This document shows positions 726 through 53,476 of a stretch of 64,000 nt of DNA, piece by piece. Each line of letters starts with the position of its first letter. Position 1 is the stretch's first letter. This stretch comes from Chitinophagales bacterium (GTDB lineage: Bacteria; Bacteroidota; Bacteroidia; Chitinophagales; UBA10324). The notes under the pieces are model-generated. The model saw only the letters and a list, made by a program, of their open reading frames with translations. It searched no databases and was not told where the DNA came from. The position numbers were made by a program, and so were the translations under genes. Where the stretch lies: assembly GCA_019694975.1 (NCBI GenBank), contig JAIBAY010000001.1, positions 378,732 through 442,731 on the forward strand, read 5' to 3'.

Positions 726-1544
726 TTGACTCCACAAAACCCAATTGGAATTTTTGATTCCGGCATTGGCGGCTTAACGGTCGCCAATGCTGTTTCTAAG
801 CTGCTGCCCGAAGAAGAACTCATCTACTTTGGCGACACAGCGCATCTGCCTTACGGCGATAAATCAGCGGAAGCGATTCAACACTACTCCATCCGCATCG
901 CTGATTTTTTGCTCGATAAAAATTGCAAGCTGCTGTTGATAGCCTGCAACACTGCCTCTGCGGCCGCATTCGATGTGGTGAAAGCGCACGTTGCACAAAA
1001 AACCAATGATACCGTACCGGTGGTTAACGTAATTGATCCGGTGGTGGAACGGGTGGCAGCCGATACGACCATTCACAAGATCGGTATCATCGGAACCAAA
1101 GGCACCATCAAATCAGGCACGTATGAACATAAGCTCAAGGCGTTACGGCCCGACCTGGAAACCGTTGGACTTGCCACAGCCCTGCTTGCTTCCATGATTG
1201 AAGCAGGCTTCTACAACAACAGTGTCAGCCAGGCTGTCATCAACTCTTACCTAGCCTATCCCGACTTCAGCGACATACAGGGAATGATATTGGCCTGCAC
1301 CCATTATCCGCTGATTGAAAAAGAAGTAGCCGCCTACTTCAATCATCGCATAAAAATATTCGACTCCACCAATATTGTTGCCGGGCAGGTAAAAGACACC
1401 CTCGAATCAAAAAAACTACTCAACAACAAGCGCCGCAATCCGCATCACTTCTATGTTTCCGACTTCACTGATTCCTTCGAGCAAACCACCAAAATCTTCT
1501 TCGATGAAAAGATTCATTTGGAGCAGAGCGGGATTTGGGAGTGA
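726..1544 (+). CDS. murI: Glutamate racemase MurI
   Basis: Cytoplasmic enzyme converting L- to D-glutamate for peptidoglycan. The 272-residue protein has the family's Asp-Ser pair in GIFDSGIGG (D11, S12), GDTAHLPYG (36-44), the first catalytic Cys in LLIACNTAS (C74) and the second in ILACTHYP (C191, H193). Length is typical. The start is TTG at 726: no ATG lies between the upstream stop and the conserved GIFDSGIGG motif, so a non-ATG start is needed. It sits 45 bp after the OmpH-type gene on the same strand. Confidence 0.96.
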   Translation: MTPQNPIGIFDSGIGGLTVANAVSKLLPEEELIYFGDTAHLPYGDKSAEAIQHYSIRIADFLLDKNCKLLLIACNTASAAAFDVVKAHVAQKTNDTVPVVNVIDPVVERVAADTTIHKIGIIGTKGTIKSGTYEHKLKALRPDLETVGLATALLASMIEAGFYNNSVSQAVINSYLAYPDFSDIQGMILACTHYPLIEKEVAAYFNHRIKIFDSTNIVAGQVKDTLESKKLLNNKRRNPHHFYVSDFTDSFEQTTKIFFDEKIHLEQSGIWE

Positions 1545-1690
1545 AGATGAAGGGAGCTATTTAACTGAAACAATTCACTTGCTCCATAGTCGTAAGCCTT
1601 GCATTGCGCTGTCTGCTTTTTTGATTCACGCTTATGAAATAGGATCTGAGAAACTATTGTTAGGCTTTCCAATGAATCATACTGGAACTA

Positions 1691-1710
1691 CTGCTTAGCA
1701 TTTTAAGCAG
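1691..1710. repeat. Inverted repeat in the murI/glycosyltransferase convergent gap
   Basis: CTGCTTA (1691-1697) and TAAGCAG (1704-1710) form a perfect 7-bp stem with a 6-nt loop between two convergent genes. There is no T-run after it on either strand, so it is only a weak candidate for a bidirectional terminator. The rest of the 268-bp gap holds no gene I can support. Confidence 0.3.
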
Positions 1711-1812
1711 CATTGTGATTCAATCATTCACAGAGGTAGTTCACAGATTGATGCAACGTGCATTGCAGTAACTAAATCTGATCACTGCAACAAGTTCTCC
1801 TCCAGCCACACT

Positions 1813-2928
1813 TTATGCTTCAATCCTTTCCAGCCATTCTCTTACATGCTCCTTCCATGCAACACTGCCGGAAGCAGTGAAACCATGGTAGTTTCCGGAT
1901 TCGCTGACTGCCGTTTGCAGATCAAACAACTCCTGTGTTGCAGAGTAGCAGATGCCACGCTGCATGAGATTGTTCGACAGGTATTCCTGTTCCGTTTGCC
2001 CGGGCGTGGGAATGAAGATGGCTTTGCCGCCAATGGCTGCAAGGTCCATAATCGTAGTGTAACCCGGCCGTGCAATGATGAGGCCGGCTGAAAGTATCGC
2101 CGAATTGAGTTCCCGGGTGAGCAGGTAATCCACCTTCGTGAAATTTTCCGACAGGCTTACGGGCACATCCGTTCCTTCCATCACACCCCTGACCAGCAGC
2201 ACCTTCAAGCGCGCACGCGAACCGGATGGATGAACAGTTTTTTCATACTGCATGAACTGACCTGTTAGTTTAGTTTCCAGCAGGGTGCGCTGCGGCTCCG
2301 GGCCGGAAAGCAAAATGAGGATATCATATTTCCTGCTTTCTTCCCGGCTGTTAAAACGTGAGAGTGGCCCGATAAAAACCACCTTCCCGGTTGCAGGTAA
2401 CCCTTTCGACAAATCACCGGACCAATTGCCCGGGCCTTCTGCATCGGCAATCCAGCAATTGTCAAATTTTGAAATAAAGAAATGATTAACAACGTTCACG
2501 ATAGTTGCCATCCATTGCAGTGTAACCGGTAGCCTTATGGTTGCCTGATGCGTAATGAAGACCGACGGGATATTGCGGGCAAATAAACCATACCGGTTGT
2601 CAGCAATCACCGCATCAATTTTTTCTGCAGCAATTATTTTTTTTAACTGCCTGTGTTCCGCTATTACAGCAGTCAGCAGTTTCGGCAGTTGCAGCATCAG
2701 CCGCAGGGCAAGGCTTCCTTTTTCCTGGTAGCGGACAACAGTGCCCGGCATGTGAATCCATTTTAGGGCGGGAAACTCTTTGCGCAGCAAGGCGAGTGCA
2801 GCTCCGTCGGCTCCAATGATTACCTCGGCGCCGAGATGTTGCATTTCACTGATGAGCGGAATGCAGCGGGCGGCATGACCGAGTCCCCAGTTCAGCGGAG
2901 CGACGAGGATTTTTTTGCCTTGCTTCAT
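1813..2928 (-). CDS. GT-B glycosyltransferase (MurG-like fold), Bacteroidota family
   Basis: The 371-residue protein opens with ILVAPLNWGLGHAARCIPL (about 6-24), the glycine-rich N-terminal loop of GT-B/family 28-like transferases, and has a C-terminal nucleotide-sugar half with IIARPGYTTIMDLAAIGGKAIFIPTPGQTEQEYL (about 283-316 region), including the acidic/Gln-rich sugar-nucleotide motif. No signal peptide or membrane helix is obvious, so it is probably cytoplasmic or membrane-associated. Acceptor and donor are unknown. It is transcribed alone and convergent to murI. It is distinct from true MurG, which normally sits in the mur operon. Confidence 0.8.
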   Translation of the reverse strand: MKQGKKILVAPLNWGLGHAARCIPLISEMQHLGAEVIIGADGAALALLRKEFPALKWIHMPGTVVRYQEKGSLALRLMLQLPKLLTAVIAEHRQLKKIIAAEKIDAVIADNRYGLFARNIPSVFITHQATIRLPVTLQWMATIVNVVNHFFISKFDNCWIADAEGPGNWSGDLSKGLPATGKVVFIGPLSRFNSREESRKYDILILLSGPEPQRTLLETKLTGQFMQYEKTVHPSGSRARLKVLLVRGVMEGTDVPVSLSENFTKVDYLLTRELNSAILSAGLIIARPGYTTIMDLAAIGGKAIFIPTPGQTEQEYLSNNLMQRGICYSATQELFDLQTAVSESGNYHGFTASGSVAWKEHVREWLERIEA

Positions 2929-3092
2929 AGCTGATAAAAATAGAACACGGATGATAATGAAGCGGAAGAATTTGCAACAGCAGCAGCGTATCCTTTAGTA
3001 ATATCGCGGCACTGCAAGCGTACAGCAATTATGTTGCAGAAAAAACAGGCTGTTGTCAGCGGCCATTTCAGCCTAAATCCGATATTTACCGC

Positions 3093-3828: not shown

Positions 3829-5946
3829 ATGAAGAAGAATCTGAAAATCGGACTGGTCGGCAACCCCAACTGCGGAAAATCTTCGCTGTTTAATGCATTG
3901 ACGGGTCTGCGGCAGAAGGTCGGCAACTTTGCAGGCGTTACCGTGGATAAAAAAACAGGTTACCTGCCATTGTCGAAAGATCTTTCCGCCAACCTGATTG
4001 ACCTTCCGGGCACTTACAGCCTCTATCCGCGCCGCATTGATGAGTTCATCACCTTCGACGTTTTGCTGAACCCTGATAATGATTCGCATCCCGACCTATT
4101 GGTGATTGTAGCAGATGCCTCCAACCTGAAACGCAATCTGCTGTTTTGTTCACAGATCATAGACCTGAAGATTCCCACCATCATTGCCCTCAACATGATG
4201 GATGTGGCGCGTAAAAACGGCCTTGCCATTGATACGCAACAGCTGGCGGTAGAGCTTGGCGTAAAAGTGATACCCATCAATGCGCGCGAAGGAAAAGGCA
4301 TCAACGATCTTAAACGGGCGATACAAACCACCATACCGGTTCCTGATAAGAATTTTGTGGAAGTGAAGCCGCTTTGCCCGGAGGTGATTGATGGAGTGAA
4401 AGAAATCACCGGCGTGAAGAGCGATTATACCGCCTTCCAGATTGCCTGTCACTATATCAATATTTTCTGTTTTAACGTGGAACAGAAAGGCCGCATCAAA
4501 CGCCTGCTGGAGCAACACCATTTTACCATGGCCAAACTGCAAGGCGAAGAAATCCTGAAACGGTACGATAAAATCAATCCAATACTCACCCGGTGCACTT
4601 CGCAGGACAGAAGCAGGCAGCAGGCGCTTGATACAACGGCAGGCATTGATGCCGTGTTACTGCATCCTGTTTACGGGTACCTGATTTTTTTGCTGATATT
4701 CTATTTCGTGTTCCAGGCCATTTTTTCATGGGCTACTTATCCCATGGAAGCGATCAGCAATGCATTCAGTTACCTGCAGGCTACACTGAACCAATCATTA
4801 CCGCAGAACATTGTAACGGATCTGTTAGTGGAAGGCGTGCTGGCCGGTATTGGCGGCATTGTGGTCTTTATACCACAGATCATGCTACTCTTCGGATTTA
4901 TCTCAATACTGGAGGATACAGGATATATGACGCGCGTGAGTTTCCTGATGGACAGGCTGATGCGGAAAGTGGGTATGAGCGGTAAGTCAACCTTGCCATT
5001 GGTGAGCGGGATGGCTTGTGCTGTGCCGGCCATCCTCTCCACACGCGGCATTGAAAACTGGAAAGACAGGATCATCACCATCATGGTAACACCGTTGATG
5101 AGCTGTTCGGCCCGATTGCCCGTATATGCACTGCTGATCAGCTTTATTGTGCCGGATGAAAAGCTATTCGGTTTCATGAACCTGAAAGGCCTTGCCATGC
5201 TTGGTTTATACCTGCTCGGCTGGCTTATGGCATTGCTGGCAGCGCTGGTGATGAAGCTTATTATCAGGGCAAAAGAAAAAAGCTATTACCTGATGGAGTT
5301 ACCTATCTACCGCTGGCCACGTTGGGGAAATGTAGGCATCACCATGTTGGAAAAGGCGAAGGTATTCGTGATGGATGCCGGAAAAGTCATCATCACCATT
5401 TCCATTATCCTGTGGCTGCTCGCATCCTTTGGCCCCGGAAATTCTTTACAGGCCATAGAGGAAAAATTCGCACAGCTGCACCCTACAGAGATGGTAACAC
5501 AAACCGAACTGAATAACCGGCTGCAGGCAGAAAAACTCGGCGCATCCTATGCAGGCCAGATAGGCCATTTTATTGAGCCGGTGATAAGGCCACTTGGTTT
5601 CGACTGGAAAATCGGTATTGCCCTGATCACCTCATTTGCCGCGAGAGAAGTTTTTGTTGGAACGATGTCAACCATCTATAGCATTGGTTCGGCGGATGAT
5701 GCCGACTTTGAAGCTATCCGCGACAAGATGCGCAATGAAGTTGATCCTTTAACGGGCATGCATGTCTATAGCAGTGCCACCGCTTTCTCGCTGATGATAT
5801 TCTTCGCATTTGCCATGCAGTGTATGAGTACTGTTGCAGTGGTAAGACGGGAGACAAAATCATGGAAATGGCCATTGCTGCAGATTGCCTACATGACGGG
5901 GCTTGCCTACCTGTCGAGTCTGCTGGTTTATCAATTGATGCGTTAG
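3829..5946 (+). CDS. feoB: Ferrous iron transporter FeoB
   Basis: The 705-residue protein has an N-terminal G domain: G1 GNPNCGKS (11-18), G2 Thr in FAGVTVD (T38), G3 DLPG (58-61) and G4 NMMD (122-125). It continues with a helical spacer and a polytopic membrane region from about residue 280 containing the Gate motifs (GMACAVPAI near 400 and the later TSFAAREVFVGTM near 605). It imports Fe2+ across the inner membrane in a GTP-dependent way. Length is typical of Bacteroidota FeoB with FeoA encoded separately. No frameshift or missing G-motif is seen. Confidence 0.97.
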   Translation: MKKNLKIGLVGNPNCGKSSLFNALTGLRQKVGNFAGVTVDKKTGYLPLSKDLSANLIDLPGTYSLYPRRIDEFITFDVLLNPDNDSHPDLLVIVADASNLKRNLLFCSQIIDLKIPTIIALNMMDVARKNGLAIDTQQLAVELGVKVIPINAREGKGINDLKRAIQTTIPVPDKNFVEVKPLCPEVIDGVKEITGVKSDYTAFQIACHYINIFCFNVEQKGRIKRLLEQHHFTMAKLQGEEILKRYDKINPILTRCTSQDRSRQQALDTTAGIDAVLLHPVYGYLIFLLIFYFVFQAIFSWATYPMEAISNAFSYLQATLNQSLPQNIVTDLLVEGVLAGIGGIVVFIPQIMLLFGFISILEDTGYMTRVSFLMDRLMRKVGMSGKSTLPLVSGMACAVPAILSTRGIENWKDRIITIMVTPLMSCSARLPVYALLISFIVPDEKLFGFMNLKGLAMLGLYLLGWLMALLAALVMKLIIRAKEKSYYLMELPIYRWPRWGNVGITMLEKAKVFVMDAGKVIITISIILWLLASFGPGNSLQAIEEKFAQLHPTEMVTQTELNNRLQAEKLGASYAGQIGHFIEPVIRPLGFDWKIGIALITSFAAREVFVGTMSTIYSIGSADDADFEAIRDKMRNEVDPLTGMHVYSSATAFSLMIFFAFAMQCMSTVAVVRRETKSWKWPLLQIAYMTGLAYLSSLLVYQLMR

Positions 5947-35409: not shown

Positions 35410-35838
35410 TATGGTCGCAGATGCAATGACCCCGACGATCGGAGAAGATACAGAAGCTATCTCAATATATCCGGAGTCATCCGTCCCGATTGATTGAGAT
35501 CAGGATCTCTTCCATACATTGACAGATGCCGAAATAAATCCGGCATGACAGCATTAATTGCCTGTTTTGAGATAGCTTCTTTTTCCGGCAGCACTTCAGT
35601 GACAGCACACATACTATTTTCAGAACTTCTGCCCCGATTCCTATCACCTTTCCCTTTATCAGTTTTCATTTTTGTTAGGATCATCGACGGATAATCTTTC
35701 CATTCGAAAATTTTCCCACAGGAATTAATTACCTGACCGTGACCGGGATAGTTGCATCGAAAATGCAACTGTTTTCAGTGATGGCTCCATGATAAGACGG
35801 AGACTTCATCCTTCCGCATATTCAGTCGTCTGGCATGA
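35410..35838. other. 429-bp gap containing an inverted repeat element
   Basis: Between convergent genes. It carries one repeat copy related to the 52.7-53.4 kb element (35476-35546, opposite orientation). A 103-codon frame through it (35457-35768, minus) is repeat read-through, not a gene. Confidence 0.5.
35476..35546 (-). repeat. Single inverted copy of the double-hairpin intergenic repeat
   Basis: Read on the minus strand it begins with a hairpin, ATGCCGGA-TTTAT-TTCGGCAT (35526-35546, one mismatch in the arm), and continues with a diverged second arm region containing GATCCTGATCTC and ending GGATGAC. This follows the order of the element at 53021-53100, so the two loci share one repeat family. 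Confidence 0.65.
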
Positions 35839-50547: not shown

Positions 50548-50598
50548 AGATCTGTTCCTGGCATAGAATAACCGGCTGCCATTGGTAATTTTTATCAG

Positions 50599-51222
50599 AT
50601 GAATAATCTTGGGAACAAATACAACTATGCAGCGGCTATTGTCAACCTGTTGATTACTGCGTTCGGTGTATTGATCCTGCAATGGAGTGTACAGCCGGTT
50701 ATTTACCTGTTTTGGATGGAAATAATAATCATTGTGATTGTTGCCTGCATCAGGATGATGGGTGCAATGGATGGAAAACCATTTATACAAACCCTTCCCG
50801 GAAAAATTCCATTGCTTATTGCTGCTTTATTTACAGGTGCCATGATAATTTCACTTGCTGTTGCATTCACCATCGGTGTATTTGCCAATGGTACTGATTC
50901 AGAGAGTTTCAAAGGCATTGGAATAGCCGTTGCCATACTCTGGTGTAATTACCTCAGCGGGCTGATCATACAGTTTTTCCTGAGCGGACATTTCAGAGTT
51001 GCCGTGCCTTTCACTGAATTGATTTTCTCTTTTGTCTACCTGCTGATACTGCTCGCATTCATCATGGCTGTTACACAACACCTCATACCGGCACTTTCTT
51101 CCCGTCAGTCGCCAACGCTGACTGGCTTGTCGGTGATTGGCATTAAATTTATCATTGACTGTTTACGGGCTTATCTGACACCGTATGTGACACCAGGTAG
51201 TGAGGAGTCACCATCACCGTAA
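50599..51222 (+). CDS. DUF6498-type membrane protein
   Basis: A 207-residue protein with about six hydrophobic helices (for example 10-28, 31-52, 70-95, 110-131, 140-160) and the opening NYAAAIVNLLITAFGVLILQWSVQPVIYLFWMEIIIIVI, which resembles the DUF6498 family. No catalytic motif or known role. It follows PBP1A by 52 bp in the same direction and precedes the TIR-HAD gene by 208 bp, so no firm operon link can be drawn. Confidence 0.7.
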   Translation: MNNLGNKYNYAAAIVNLLITAFGVLILQWSVQPVIYLFWMEIIIIVIVACIRMMGAMDGKPFIQTLPGKIPLLIAALFTGAMIISLAVAFTIGVFANGTDSESFKGIGIAVAILWCNYLSGLIIQFFLSGHFRVAVPFTELIFSFVYLLILLAFIMAVTQHLIPALSSRQSPTLTGLSVIGIKFIIDCLRAYLTPYVTPGSEESPSP

Positions 51223-51430
51223 TATTGAATACCTGATCTACAGCGCAAAAACAGATGGGCGCTGCATTTCAATAGGAGACTGGCCCGGCCGGATTTTATT
51301 GGGAATCCTGATATTCAGTTAAGTGAACAGGCGATCATACTGCTGCATTACAGTAATTCACTTCAGGAAAAATGATGATTAAACTATCATGTAAATAATG
51401 AATATTTGCAAGTAGCAAAAATGAGATCAG

Positions 51431-52630
51431 ATGGAGAATAGCAAGTGGGATGTTTTTATTTGCCATGCGGGTGAAGACAAGAGTGATGTGGTGCAGCCGC
51501 TTACCATACATTTCAAGGAAGCGGGAATAACCTATTGGCTCGATGAAGGCGAGATTCTGTGGGGCGACAGCATCATCACGAAAATAAATGAAGGGCTCGT
51601 CAAATCCCGCTACGTGCTGGTGGTGCTGAGCGATGCATCCGTCAATAAAAACTGGCCGTTGTTTGAGCTGAATGCCATGATGAGCCAGGAAGCGGAAGAA
51701 GGCAATGTCAAAATTCTGCCACTGCTGAAAGGTACAGATGAAGTGATAAAAAGCATACGGTCGAAAATGATTTTGCTGAGAAACAAGTCATTCCTGAAGT
51801 GGAAAAACAATCCGGCTGAAATTGTTCATGCATTACAAAAAAGACTCGGCATCAATACTTCGCCTGCTCAGTCACAAATGCAGGATAACCTGGCCCTTCA
51901 GGCATCCGCCACGGAAGACGTAAACACACTTGTCGTCAGCAAAGCGGCAACCACACCGAAAGACTGGCTGAAATATAAATTAGTTGCCTTTGATCTTGAT
52001 GGTACTTTATTAAAGGGTTATACCTTTTCATGGACACTGATTTGGGAATATCTCAAGTATCCGCGGAAGCTGCAAAAGACCGGCATGCAACGTTACCGTG
52101 CCGGCAAAACTACCTATAAACAATGGTGCGACTGGGCAGTGAATCTGTTTATGGAAAAAAACCTGCGACGCGAAGATTTTTCTGCCATTACACAGCAGGT
52201 GACGCTCACCAAAAATTTTATGGATACCATAAAATTGCTGAAACAGGAAGGCATCATCCTGGCTATTATTTCAGGTGGCATTGATACGTTCCTGCATGAA
52301 AAGATTCCGGATGCAGAAAAACTCTTTGACTATATTTTCATCAATAAGTTGCAATTCGACGAAGATGGAAGGTTAAGCGGGGTTACAACAACCGACTATG
52401 ACTTTAAAGGCAAGGCCACAGCCCTGGAACTCATTTGCCGGGTGAATGGCATTGATATTTCAGAGTCTGTCTTTATAGGCGAAGGATTTAATGATGAAGA
52501 CATTGCCAGCGCCGCCGGATTATGCATTGCTTATCCGCCTTCCACCGCGCAAGGTGTAAGCCAGGTAGCTGATGAAGGCATTGAAGATGATGATCTTTCA
52601 AAAATTATTGAATTCATCATCGGCAAATAA
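51431..52630 (+). CDS. TIR domain fused to HAD-family phosphatase
   Basis: A 399-residue fusion. Residues about 6-140 form a TIR domain: WDVFICHAGEDKSDVVQPL, ITYWLDEGEILWGDSI, YVLVVLSDASVNKNWPLFE and KILPLL, with W75 and the candidate NADase Glu E79 in the W-x3-E arrangement of SARM1-type TIRs. After a 40-residue linker, residues about 183-395 are a HAD-IB (SerB-like) phosphatase with all motifs: DLDGT (D188, D190), ISGG (S281), K328 in DFKGKA, and GEGFNDED (350-357). No signal peptide. No defence gene is adjacent; the next feature is the nested repeat. The TIR part may make a nucleotide signal or destroy NAD; the HAD part may act on its product. Both are inference. Confidence 0.88.
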   Translation: MENSKWDVFICHAGEDKSDVVQPLTIHFKEAGITYWLDEGEILWGDSIITKINEGLVKSRYVLVVLSDASVNKNWPLFELNAMMSQEAEEGNVKILPLLKGTDEVIKSIRSKMILLRNKSFLKWKNNPAEIVHALQKRLGINTSPAQSQMQDNLALQASATEDVNTLVVSKAATTPKDWLKYKLVAFDLDGTLLKGYTFSWTLIWEYLKYPRKLQKTGMQRYRAGKTTYKQWCDWAVNLFMEKNLRREDFSAITQQVTLTKNFMDTIKLLKQEGIILAIISGGIDTFLHEKIPDAEKLFDYIFINKLQFDEDGRLSGVTTTDYDFKGKATALELICRVNGIDISESVFIGEGFNDEDIASAAGLCIAYPPSTAQGVSQVADEGIEDDDLSKIIEFIIGK

Positions 52631-52680
52631 TACGAACAGCGAATTGCATCATTGAGTGCGCCTTCAAAAAGCATCATACC

Positions 52681-52737
52681 GTCTAACTGACGCCATGCCA
52701 TTCAACCGACATCATATAACTCAACCGACGTCACACC
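52681..52737 (+). repeat. 19-bp tandem repeats, first block (3 units)
   Basis: Units at 52681-52699, 52700-52718 and 52719-52737, diverged versions of ATCCAACCGACGTCATGCA, in phase with the later arrays. Confidence 0.75.
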
Positions 52738-52837
52738 GAATTTATTTCGGCATCTCACGTTCAATGATATTGCTCCGCGAATTTTAAAGATCCTGAAACA
52801 AGTTCAGGATGACACATCGGTAATTGTACCTGATCAC
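52733..52837 (+). repeat. Double-hairpin element, copy A
   Basis: First copy of the hairpin block. Hairpin 1 is weakened (CACCGAA side, CCGAA/TTCGG still pair, 52733-52753); hairpin 2 is perfect, ATCCTGAA-ACAAG-TTCAGGAT at 52790-52810. Confidence 0.8.
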
Positions 52838-53025
52838 ATTGACCGAAGTCATTCGCTTCAACGACGACATGCACTTCAGCCAGCGCCATGCCTTTCAATC
52901 CAACTCATGCCATCCAACCGATGTCATACAATCCAACCGACGTCATGCTATCCAACCGACGTCATGCAATCCAGCCGAAGTCATACAATCCAACCGACGT
53001 CATGCAATCCAACCGACGTCATGCC
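52838..53025 (+). repeat. 19-bp tandem repeats, second block (10 units)
   Basis: Four older, diverged units (52838-52911, one of them 17 bp) followed by six well-kept units at 52912, 52931, 52950, 52969, 52988 and 53007. Consensus ATCCAACCGACGTCATGCA, with the palindrome GACGTC inside. Units touch directly, without spacers. Confidence 0.9.
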
Positions 53026-53125
53026 GAATTTATTTCGGCATCTTACGTTCAATGATATTGCTCCGCGAATTTTAAAGATCCTGAAACAAGTTCAGGATGA
53101 CACATCGGTAATTGTAACTGATCAC
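53021..53125 (+). repeat. Double-hairpin element, copy B
   Basis: Hairpin 1 is perfect, ATGCCGAA-TTTAT-TTCGGCAT at 53021-53041; hairpin 2 is perfect, ATCCTGAA-ACAAG-TTCAGGAT at 53078-53098. The last 19-bp unit flows into hairpin 1, so the satellite seems to derive from its left edge. Confidence 0.9.
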
Positions 53126-53313
53126 ATTGACCGAAGTCATTCGCTTCAACGACGGCCTGCACTTCAGCCAGCGCCATGCCTTTCAATCCAACTCATGCCA
53201 TCCAACCGATGTCATACAATTCAAGCGACGTCATCCAATCCAACCGAAGTCATGCAATCCAACCGAAGTCATACAATCCAGCCGACGTCATGCTATCCAG
53301 CCGACGTCATGCC
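53126..53313 (+). repeat. 19-bp tandem repeats, third block (10 units)
   Basis: Same organisation as the second block, shifted by 288 bp: diverged units to 53199, then six units from 53200 to 53313. Single-base changes relative to the second block are scattered. Confidence 0.88.
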
Positions 53314-53390
53314 GAATTTATTTCGGCATCTTGCCATCAAGAACAGAACTCCGGGAATACTAAAGATTGCTGAAAAAAGTTCAGGATGAC
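53309..53390 (+). repeat. Double-hairpin element, copy C (diverged)
   Basis: Hairpin 1 is perfect (53309-53329). The middle differs from copies A and B, and hairpin 2 is broken to TGAA-AAAAG-TTCA near 53370-53383, so this copy is older or of separate origin. Confidence 0.7.
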
Positions 53391-53476
53391 GCATCGGCCA
53401 GTGCAACCAATACAATGAATTAATCGCATGCCATGCTCATAGATCACCCATGAAAACCGGCATTCATTACCATACC

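Follow-up and report, generated by a model that had tools for sequence, protein, structure and literature searches.

A TIR domain fused to a HAD-IB domain in a Chitinophagales bacterium: a candidate single-gene NAD-cleaving effector

Which function could be served by a single protein in which a TIR domain is followed by a domain of the HAD-IB family? This question is raised by a gene of a Chitinophagales bacterium (GenBank assembly GCA_019694975.1, contig JAIBAY010000001.1), found in the stretch of 64,000 nucleotides that was analysed here and is referred to below as the window.

Architecture of the protein and its locus

The gene occupies exactly positions 51431-52630 and is an intact open reading frame with an ATG start and without an internal stop, encoding a 399-aa protein (labelled P0001; below, the TIR-HAD protein). 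As the initial annotation had proposed, the two domains lie in one frame. The Pfam families are matched above their curated cut-offs: TIR_2 (E = 1.5e-20) at residues 8-104, Hydrolase (HAD; E = 1.1e-12) at residues 182-363, and HAD (E = 9e-12). With Pfam and NCBIfam scores far beyond chance, the presence of TIR and HAD-IB in one protein is a real fusion. An assembly artefact was ruled out as its origin: the frame is single and open, and the assembly is 100% complete in 14 contigs. The TIR domain covers residues of about 1-142 and the HAD domain residues 181-399, with a low-confidence linker (about 143-180) between them. The features of the gene and of its surroundings are as follows.

50548..53476, no strand: accessory insertion of 2.9 kb (DUF6498 gene, TIR-HAD gene and repeat array) between PBP1A and the START-domain gene
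50599..51222, plus strand: DUF6498 hydrophobic protein (PF20108, E = 1.9e-11), with a 208-nt gap upstream of the TIR-HAD gene
51431..51856, plus strand: TIR domain of the NADase type (residues 1-142), by Pfam TIR_2, AlphaFold2 and the PDB match AbTIR
51665..51667, plus strand: codon of the putative catalytic Glu79, by invariance in TIR relatives and alignment with AbTIR, BtTir and PdTIR
51857..51970, plus strand: inter-domain linker (residues 143-180), with low pLDDT, no family match and G+C of about 0.56 vs 0.45 in the window
51971..52627, plus strand: HAD-IB domain (residues 181-399) of the PSP/5'-nucleotidase-type clade, by Pfam Hydrolase/HAD, TIGR01488, 1f5s and L238
51992..52000, plus strand: HAD motif I, D188-L-D190, aligned with D11/D13 of 1f5s
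52271..52273, plus strand: HAD motif II, Ser281, aligned with S99 of 1f5s
52412..52414, plus strand: HAD motif III, Lys328 (YDFKGKA), at the place of the motif III Lys in SerB relatives
52478..52495, plus strand: HAD motif IV, GEGFND (Glu351, Asp355); canonical form GDGxND, GNSLND in L238

In two congeners, the PBP1A and START genes are only about 40-60 bp apart and the insertion is absent, and PBP1A directly adjoins MtgA in a further two members of the family. The DUF6498 gene is missing from 20 relatives, being accessory like the fusion; its product may partner the TIR-HAD protein at the membrane. The codon usage and G+C content of the TIR-HAD gene are native, so by that measure the gain of the insertion is not recent, and a recent foreign gene was rejected on the codon usage. 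The tested neighbours comprise PBP1A, DUF6498, START, MtgA, carbonic anhydrase-like and UvrC-like genes, none of which gave a PADLOC match. The earlier statement that no other defence genes lie nearby thus holds for these neighbours (Pfam, PADLOC), and the suggestion that the system could be self-contained has become probable.

Downstream of the TIR-HAD gene, at 52703-53397, a nested repeat array is present (288-bp unit, 2.4 copies, 91% alike). The unit contains 19-bp tandem repeats and two hairpins, GCCGAATTTATTTCGGC and CCTGAAACAAGTTCAGG, the first of which is found again at 35528-35544.

The two halves and their relatives

The TIR half is predicted to be an intact NADase-type domain that would cleave NAD(P)+. 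W75 and E79 are both in place, giving a TIR fold with a glutamate in the WxxxE region; E79 is unchanged in the aligned TIR relatives (42/42) and corresponds in the alignment to a conserved Glu in AbTIR, BtTir and PdTIR. The AlphaFold2 model reaches a pLDDT >90 across most of the domain, and its best PDB match in Foldseek is AbTIR-3AD with a bound NAD analogue (7uxu; TM 0.89, rmsd 1.7). By this comparison, E79 would face the NAD pocket.

Among the best 80 loci of a TIR-pattern search of genome contigs, the nearest TIRs belong to one-gene TIR-first proteins and to RT-TIR proteins, the latter of the PADLOC RT-TIR_XII type. The one-gene TIRs L123-L129 of this set are 44-52% identical over the TIR domain. 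In L123-L128, the TIR is followed by a C-terminal module of about 160 aa that is other than HAD, and in L123, L124, L126 and L128 this module matches the PADLOC ThsB model PDLC00420. Type I HsdR adjoins L127, KAP NTPase/PDC-S20 adjoins L126, a gene with an Mrr-like domain adjoins L124, and PDC-S31 and PDC-S65 adjoin L123 and L125, respectively. In the TIR tree, whose deep branches are weak, the RT-TIRs cluster and the TIR-HAD protein falls among the TIR-first proteins. From the modules and defence-gene neighbours of these relatives, the TIR appears to represent a modular defence-associated subfamily with a swapped C-terminal part.

No ThsA was found among the tested neighbours of L123, L124, L126 and L128 (about 3941-4927), which are other, often defence-type, genes. 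The same genome has seven more TIR_2 matches, none of which (0/7) carries this HAD inside or adjoining. At C4:400896-402030 and C1:823792-824634 of G000, outside the window, a tandem TIR_2 gene pair and a 546-aa ORF with TIR_2 are located; this ORF also gives a sub-threshold DUF4062 match.

The HAD half is assigned to HAD-IB by its score (68 bits vs a cut-off of 45 for the NCBIfam subfamily TIGR01488) and by motifs I-III (D188, D190, S281 and K328), phosphatase activity not being assumed. Motif IV, which canonically has two aspartates (GDxxxD), reads GEGFND, with the first replaced by Glu351 and the second, D355, kept. Of the key residues that the initial annotation had considered complete, W75, E79, D188, D190, S281, K328 and N354/D355 are thus in place, but the first aspartate of motif IV is not. 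AlphaFold2 pLDDT is low over the HAD, modelled alone or with TIR homologues only in the alignment.

The nearest solved structure is the phosphoserine phosphatase of M. jannaschii (1f5s; E = 1e-18, about 30% identity), in which D11/D13 correspond to D188/D190 and S99 to S281. Residues E20 and R56 of this enzyme, which recognise phosphoserine through its amino and carboxyl groups, correspond to Y197 and A236. Because both recognition positions are changed and the serB equivalog cut-off is also missed (83 vs 144 bits), the HAD half is probably not a phosphoserine phosphatase, and a SerB identity was rejected on the same grounds. The earlier label 'SerB-like' can be kept loosely, for the HAD-IB family, but not for the serB score or the phosphoserine positions.

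The closest HAD among about 1,000 Bacteroidota genomes is that of the protein L238 (about 32-34% identity, E = 1.1e-24, against about 1e-14 for SerBs), and HAD-subfamily searches of about 1,000 Bacteroidota genomes returned only the TIR-HAD protein and L238. The latter has the architecture DUF4062-HTH-HAD (DUF4062, E = 1e-19) and is adjoined by a caspase-domain gene (Peptidase_C14, E = 7e-21), an arrangement which is apparently undescribed:

L238:2-1246 and 1408-2976, minus strand: L238 protein and caspase-like gene

DUF4062 is reported to be a TIR-like NADase of the antiphage system Swarozyc, in which an HTH-type auxiliary domain senses the phage portal (preprint, PMC13174449). The HAD is therefore joined to two different NADase families, TIR here and DUF4062 in L238. 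Both HADs carry the cap motif T-Y/H-K-Q/K-W-C and YDF(K/E)GKA, and in both the first aspartate of motif IV is replaced, by Asn in L238 (GNSLND) and by Glu in the TIR-HAD protein. The branches of the HAD tree are long, the grouping of the two being indicative only, and the argument is based on pairwise scores. In this tree, the SerB of L026, a genome of the same class, is nearly identical to the SerB of Parabacteroides distasonis (L308), in line with a placement of the present genome in Bacteroidota. L238 is the single supporting case. No other HAD partners of DUF4062 proteins were found in 99 genomes.

A profile built from these two HADs extends to cytosolic 5'-nucleotidase III (E about 1e-6), and each of them reaches the cut-off of Pfam UMPH-1 or slightly exceeds it, which hints that the HAD ligand could be nucleotide-like. 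Haloarcula HADs of metabolic operons carry the same cap motif; the broad HAD clade is thus not exclusively immune.

A second TIR-HAD protein was not found with the whole protein as a query in about 670 Bacteroidota genomes, nor in plasmids, phages or viral contigs, nor among the best 80 loci of the TIR-pattern search of genome contigs. No related protein emerged from scans of viral sequences by HAD query or pattern, the 16 matches of one scan being unrelated proteins. A description of a TIR-HAD system was not found in open-access papers, which agrees with the initial annotation. That annotation had regarded a one-off fusion with decayed residues as evidence against its proposal. The fusion is a one-off so far as these searches reach, but its catalytic residues are undecayed and the HAD is also joined to DUF4062. 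For recurrence of the pairing between an NADase domain and this HAD there are only two examples, the TIR-HAD protein and L238.

Possible functions of the fusion

The TIR-HAD protein is probably defence-related. Each half supports this separately, the TIR through its defence-associated relatives and the HAD through its closeness to L238, and the accessory locus adds to it. Against an immune role stand the lack of defence genes among the immediate neighbours and the native codon usage.

The reading preferred here, with somewhat less than an even chance of being correct, is that of an immune effector that cleaves NAD, is self-contained and uses its HAD as an input or gating module. When the cell is attacked by phage or otherwise stressed, the TIR domains would oligomerise and cleave NAD(P)+, leading to cell arrest or death by abortive infection, in the manner of related TIR and TIR-like NADases. 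In the nearest TIR relatives (among the best 80 loci), the variable module stands where this protein has its HAD. As the input, it could bind, and probably hydrolyse, a phosphorylated small molecule (nucleotide-like, not phosphoserine) that shifts on infection; alternatively, a phage factor could engage the HAD as a trigger. In either case, the state of the HAD would control TIR assembly. A gating role is favoured because the HAD stands where the relatives have their swapped module, because this one-gene system has no domain besides it and the TIR, and because motif IV shows drift in both NADase fusions. The HAD nucleophile, however, is kept in both fusions, as would be expected of an enzyme no less than of a sensor.

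Retention of the catalytic core in both fusions leads to the main and close rival of the gating reading, a rather unlikely proposal by itself, in which both halves would act as enzymes. The TIR would destroy NAD(P)+, and the HAD would dephosphorylate nucleotides or intermediates of NAD salvage (NMN, AMP, ADPR-PP), deepening the depletion or blocking NAD+ reconstitution by the phage. The matches to 5'-nucleotidase III and UMPH-1 agree with such substrates, and phages can use the products of NADases to regenerate NAD+ by way of ADPR-PP (PMC12774641). HAD phosphatases have also been reported as antiphage effectors: the CARF-HAD protein Chp of type III-A CRISPR is one (PMC12715507), and T7 is countered by a HAD-like hydrolase that acts together with a transmembrane protein (PMC9122126). 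The replaced first aspartate of motif IV (Glu, Asn) speaks against catalysis, as it may weaken metal binding, and a single-gene system would still need a sensor, for which the HAD is the sole candidate in the protein. It is far less probable, indeed hardly expected, that the TIR makes an ADP-ribose-type signal which the HAD trims or terminates, limiting self-toxicity. ThsB TIRs produce signal nucleotides, and ThsB models of PADLOC, including the C-terminal PDLC00420, are matched by the nearest TIR relatives (among the best 80 loci). Gene neighbourhoods have also led to the inference that some phosphatases are coupled with enzymes that process ADPR (PMC9503650). Yet no gene for a ThsA-like or other signal receptor was found beside the TIR-HAD gene, whose product ends in a HAD and not in a ThsB-type module, and neither ADPR nor its cyclic forms carry a terminal phosphate for a HAD-IB enzyme to remove.

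The fusion could also be idiosyncratic and serve housekeeping or no selected function at all, in which case the immune reading would be borrowed from its relatives. The failure to find a second copy in any of the searched collections, the neighbours and codon usage described above and the metabolic operons of Haloarcula all fit this explanation. It is nevertheless improbable, given the intact frame, the retained catalytic residues of both halves, the defence-associated TIR subfamily and the parallel DUF4062-HAD fusion.

A broader proposal would treat NADase-HAD proteins as a rare undescribed class of immune effectors, in which TIR and DUF4062 were independently paired with the same PSP/5'-nucleotidase-type HAD, needed as a metabolite-gated trigger or as a block of NAD+ resynthesis. 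We regard this as unlikely at present; with one TIR-HAD and one DUF4062-HAD protein, a new class would require more independent fusions. In view of the parallel DUF4062-HAD protein, it may be no accident that an NAD-cleaving domain is paired with a phosphatase fold. A HAD that responds to, or uses up, a phosphorylated metabolite would wire a TIR effector to central metabolism through one gene, and a phosphatase that blocks NAD+ resynthesis would directly answer the NAD+ reconstitution pathways of phages.

Comparison with known systems

The TIR of the type XII retron (RT-TIR) is about 42-45% identical over the whole domain, with the catalytic Glu conserved. RT-TIR proteins have a reverse transcriptase, whereas the TIR-HAD protein lacks it and has the TIR at the N-terminus followed by the HAD. 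The RT-TIR model NF042941 matches only the TIR part (130 vs 600 bits), and a retron was rejected, no RT being present in the protein or its tested neighbours. Thoeris was rejected as well, since no ThsA gene lies beside the TIR-HAD gene.

In the HAD half, HAD-IB membership and motifs are common with the M. jannaschii phosphoserine phosphatase (1f5s) and SerB, which differ at the phosphoserine positions (E20 and R56 against Y197 and A236) and in motif IV, where the TIR-HAD protein has Glu. The CARF-HAD protein Chp is similar in having a HAD phosphatase domain within a (candidate) immune effector (PMC12715507). It differs in its CARF sensor, its membrane helices, the HAD as the effector and the absence of a TIR; the likeness is one of architecture, and no CARF match was obtained in the TIR-HAD protein. 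Point mutants in the HAD motifs of CARF-HAD were still toxic, while deletion of the domain abolished toxicity (PMC12715507); D188 mutants of the TIR-HAD protein should accordingly be read with caution.

L238, with its DUF4062 domain related to Swarozyc NADases, has the closest HAD and the same order of an NADase domain followed by a HAD. Its NADase domain is DUF4062, an HTH stands between the two, a caspase-like gene is adjacent and motif IV is GNSLND, all of which set it apart from the TIR-HAD protein. The TIR-HAD protein matches TIR instead of DUF4062, the HAD alone being common with L238. The one-gene proteins L123-L129, some of which match PDLC00420 or PDC-S66, have the closest TIR sequences and the same TIR-first layout. 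Where the TIR-HAD protein has a HAD, they end in membrane helices or in an unrelated domain of about 160 aa. TIR effectors whose partner domain is swapped are a known kind of protein, to which the TIR-HAD protein adds a new domain combination.
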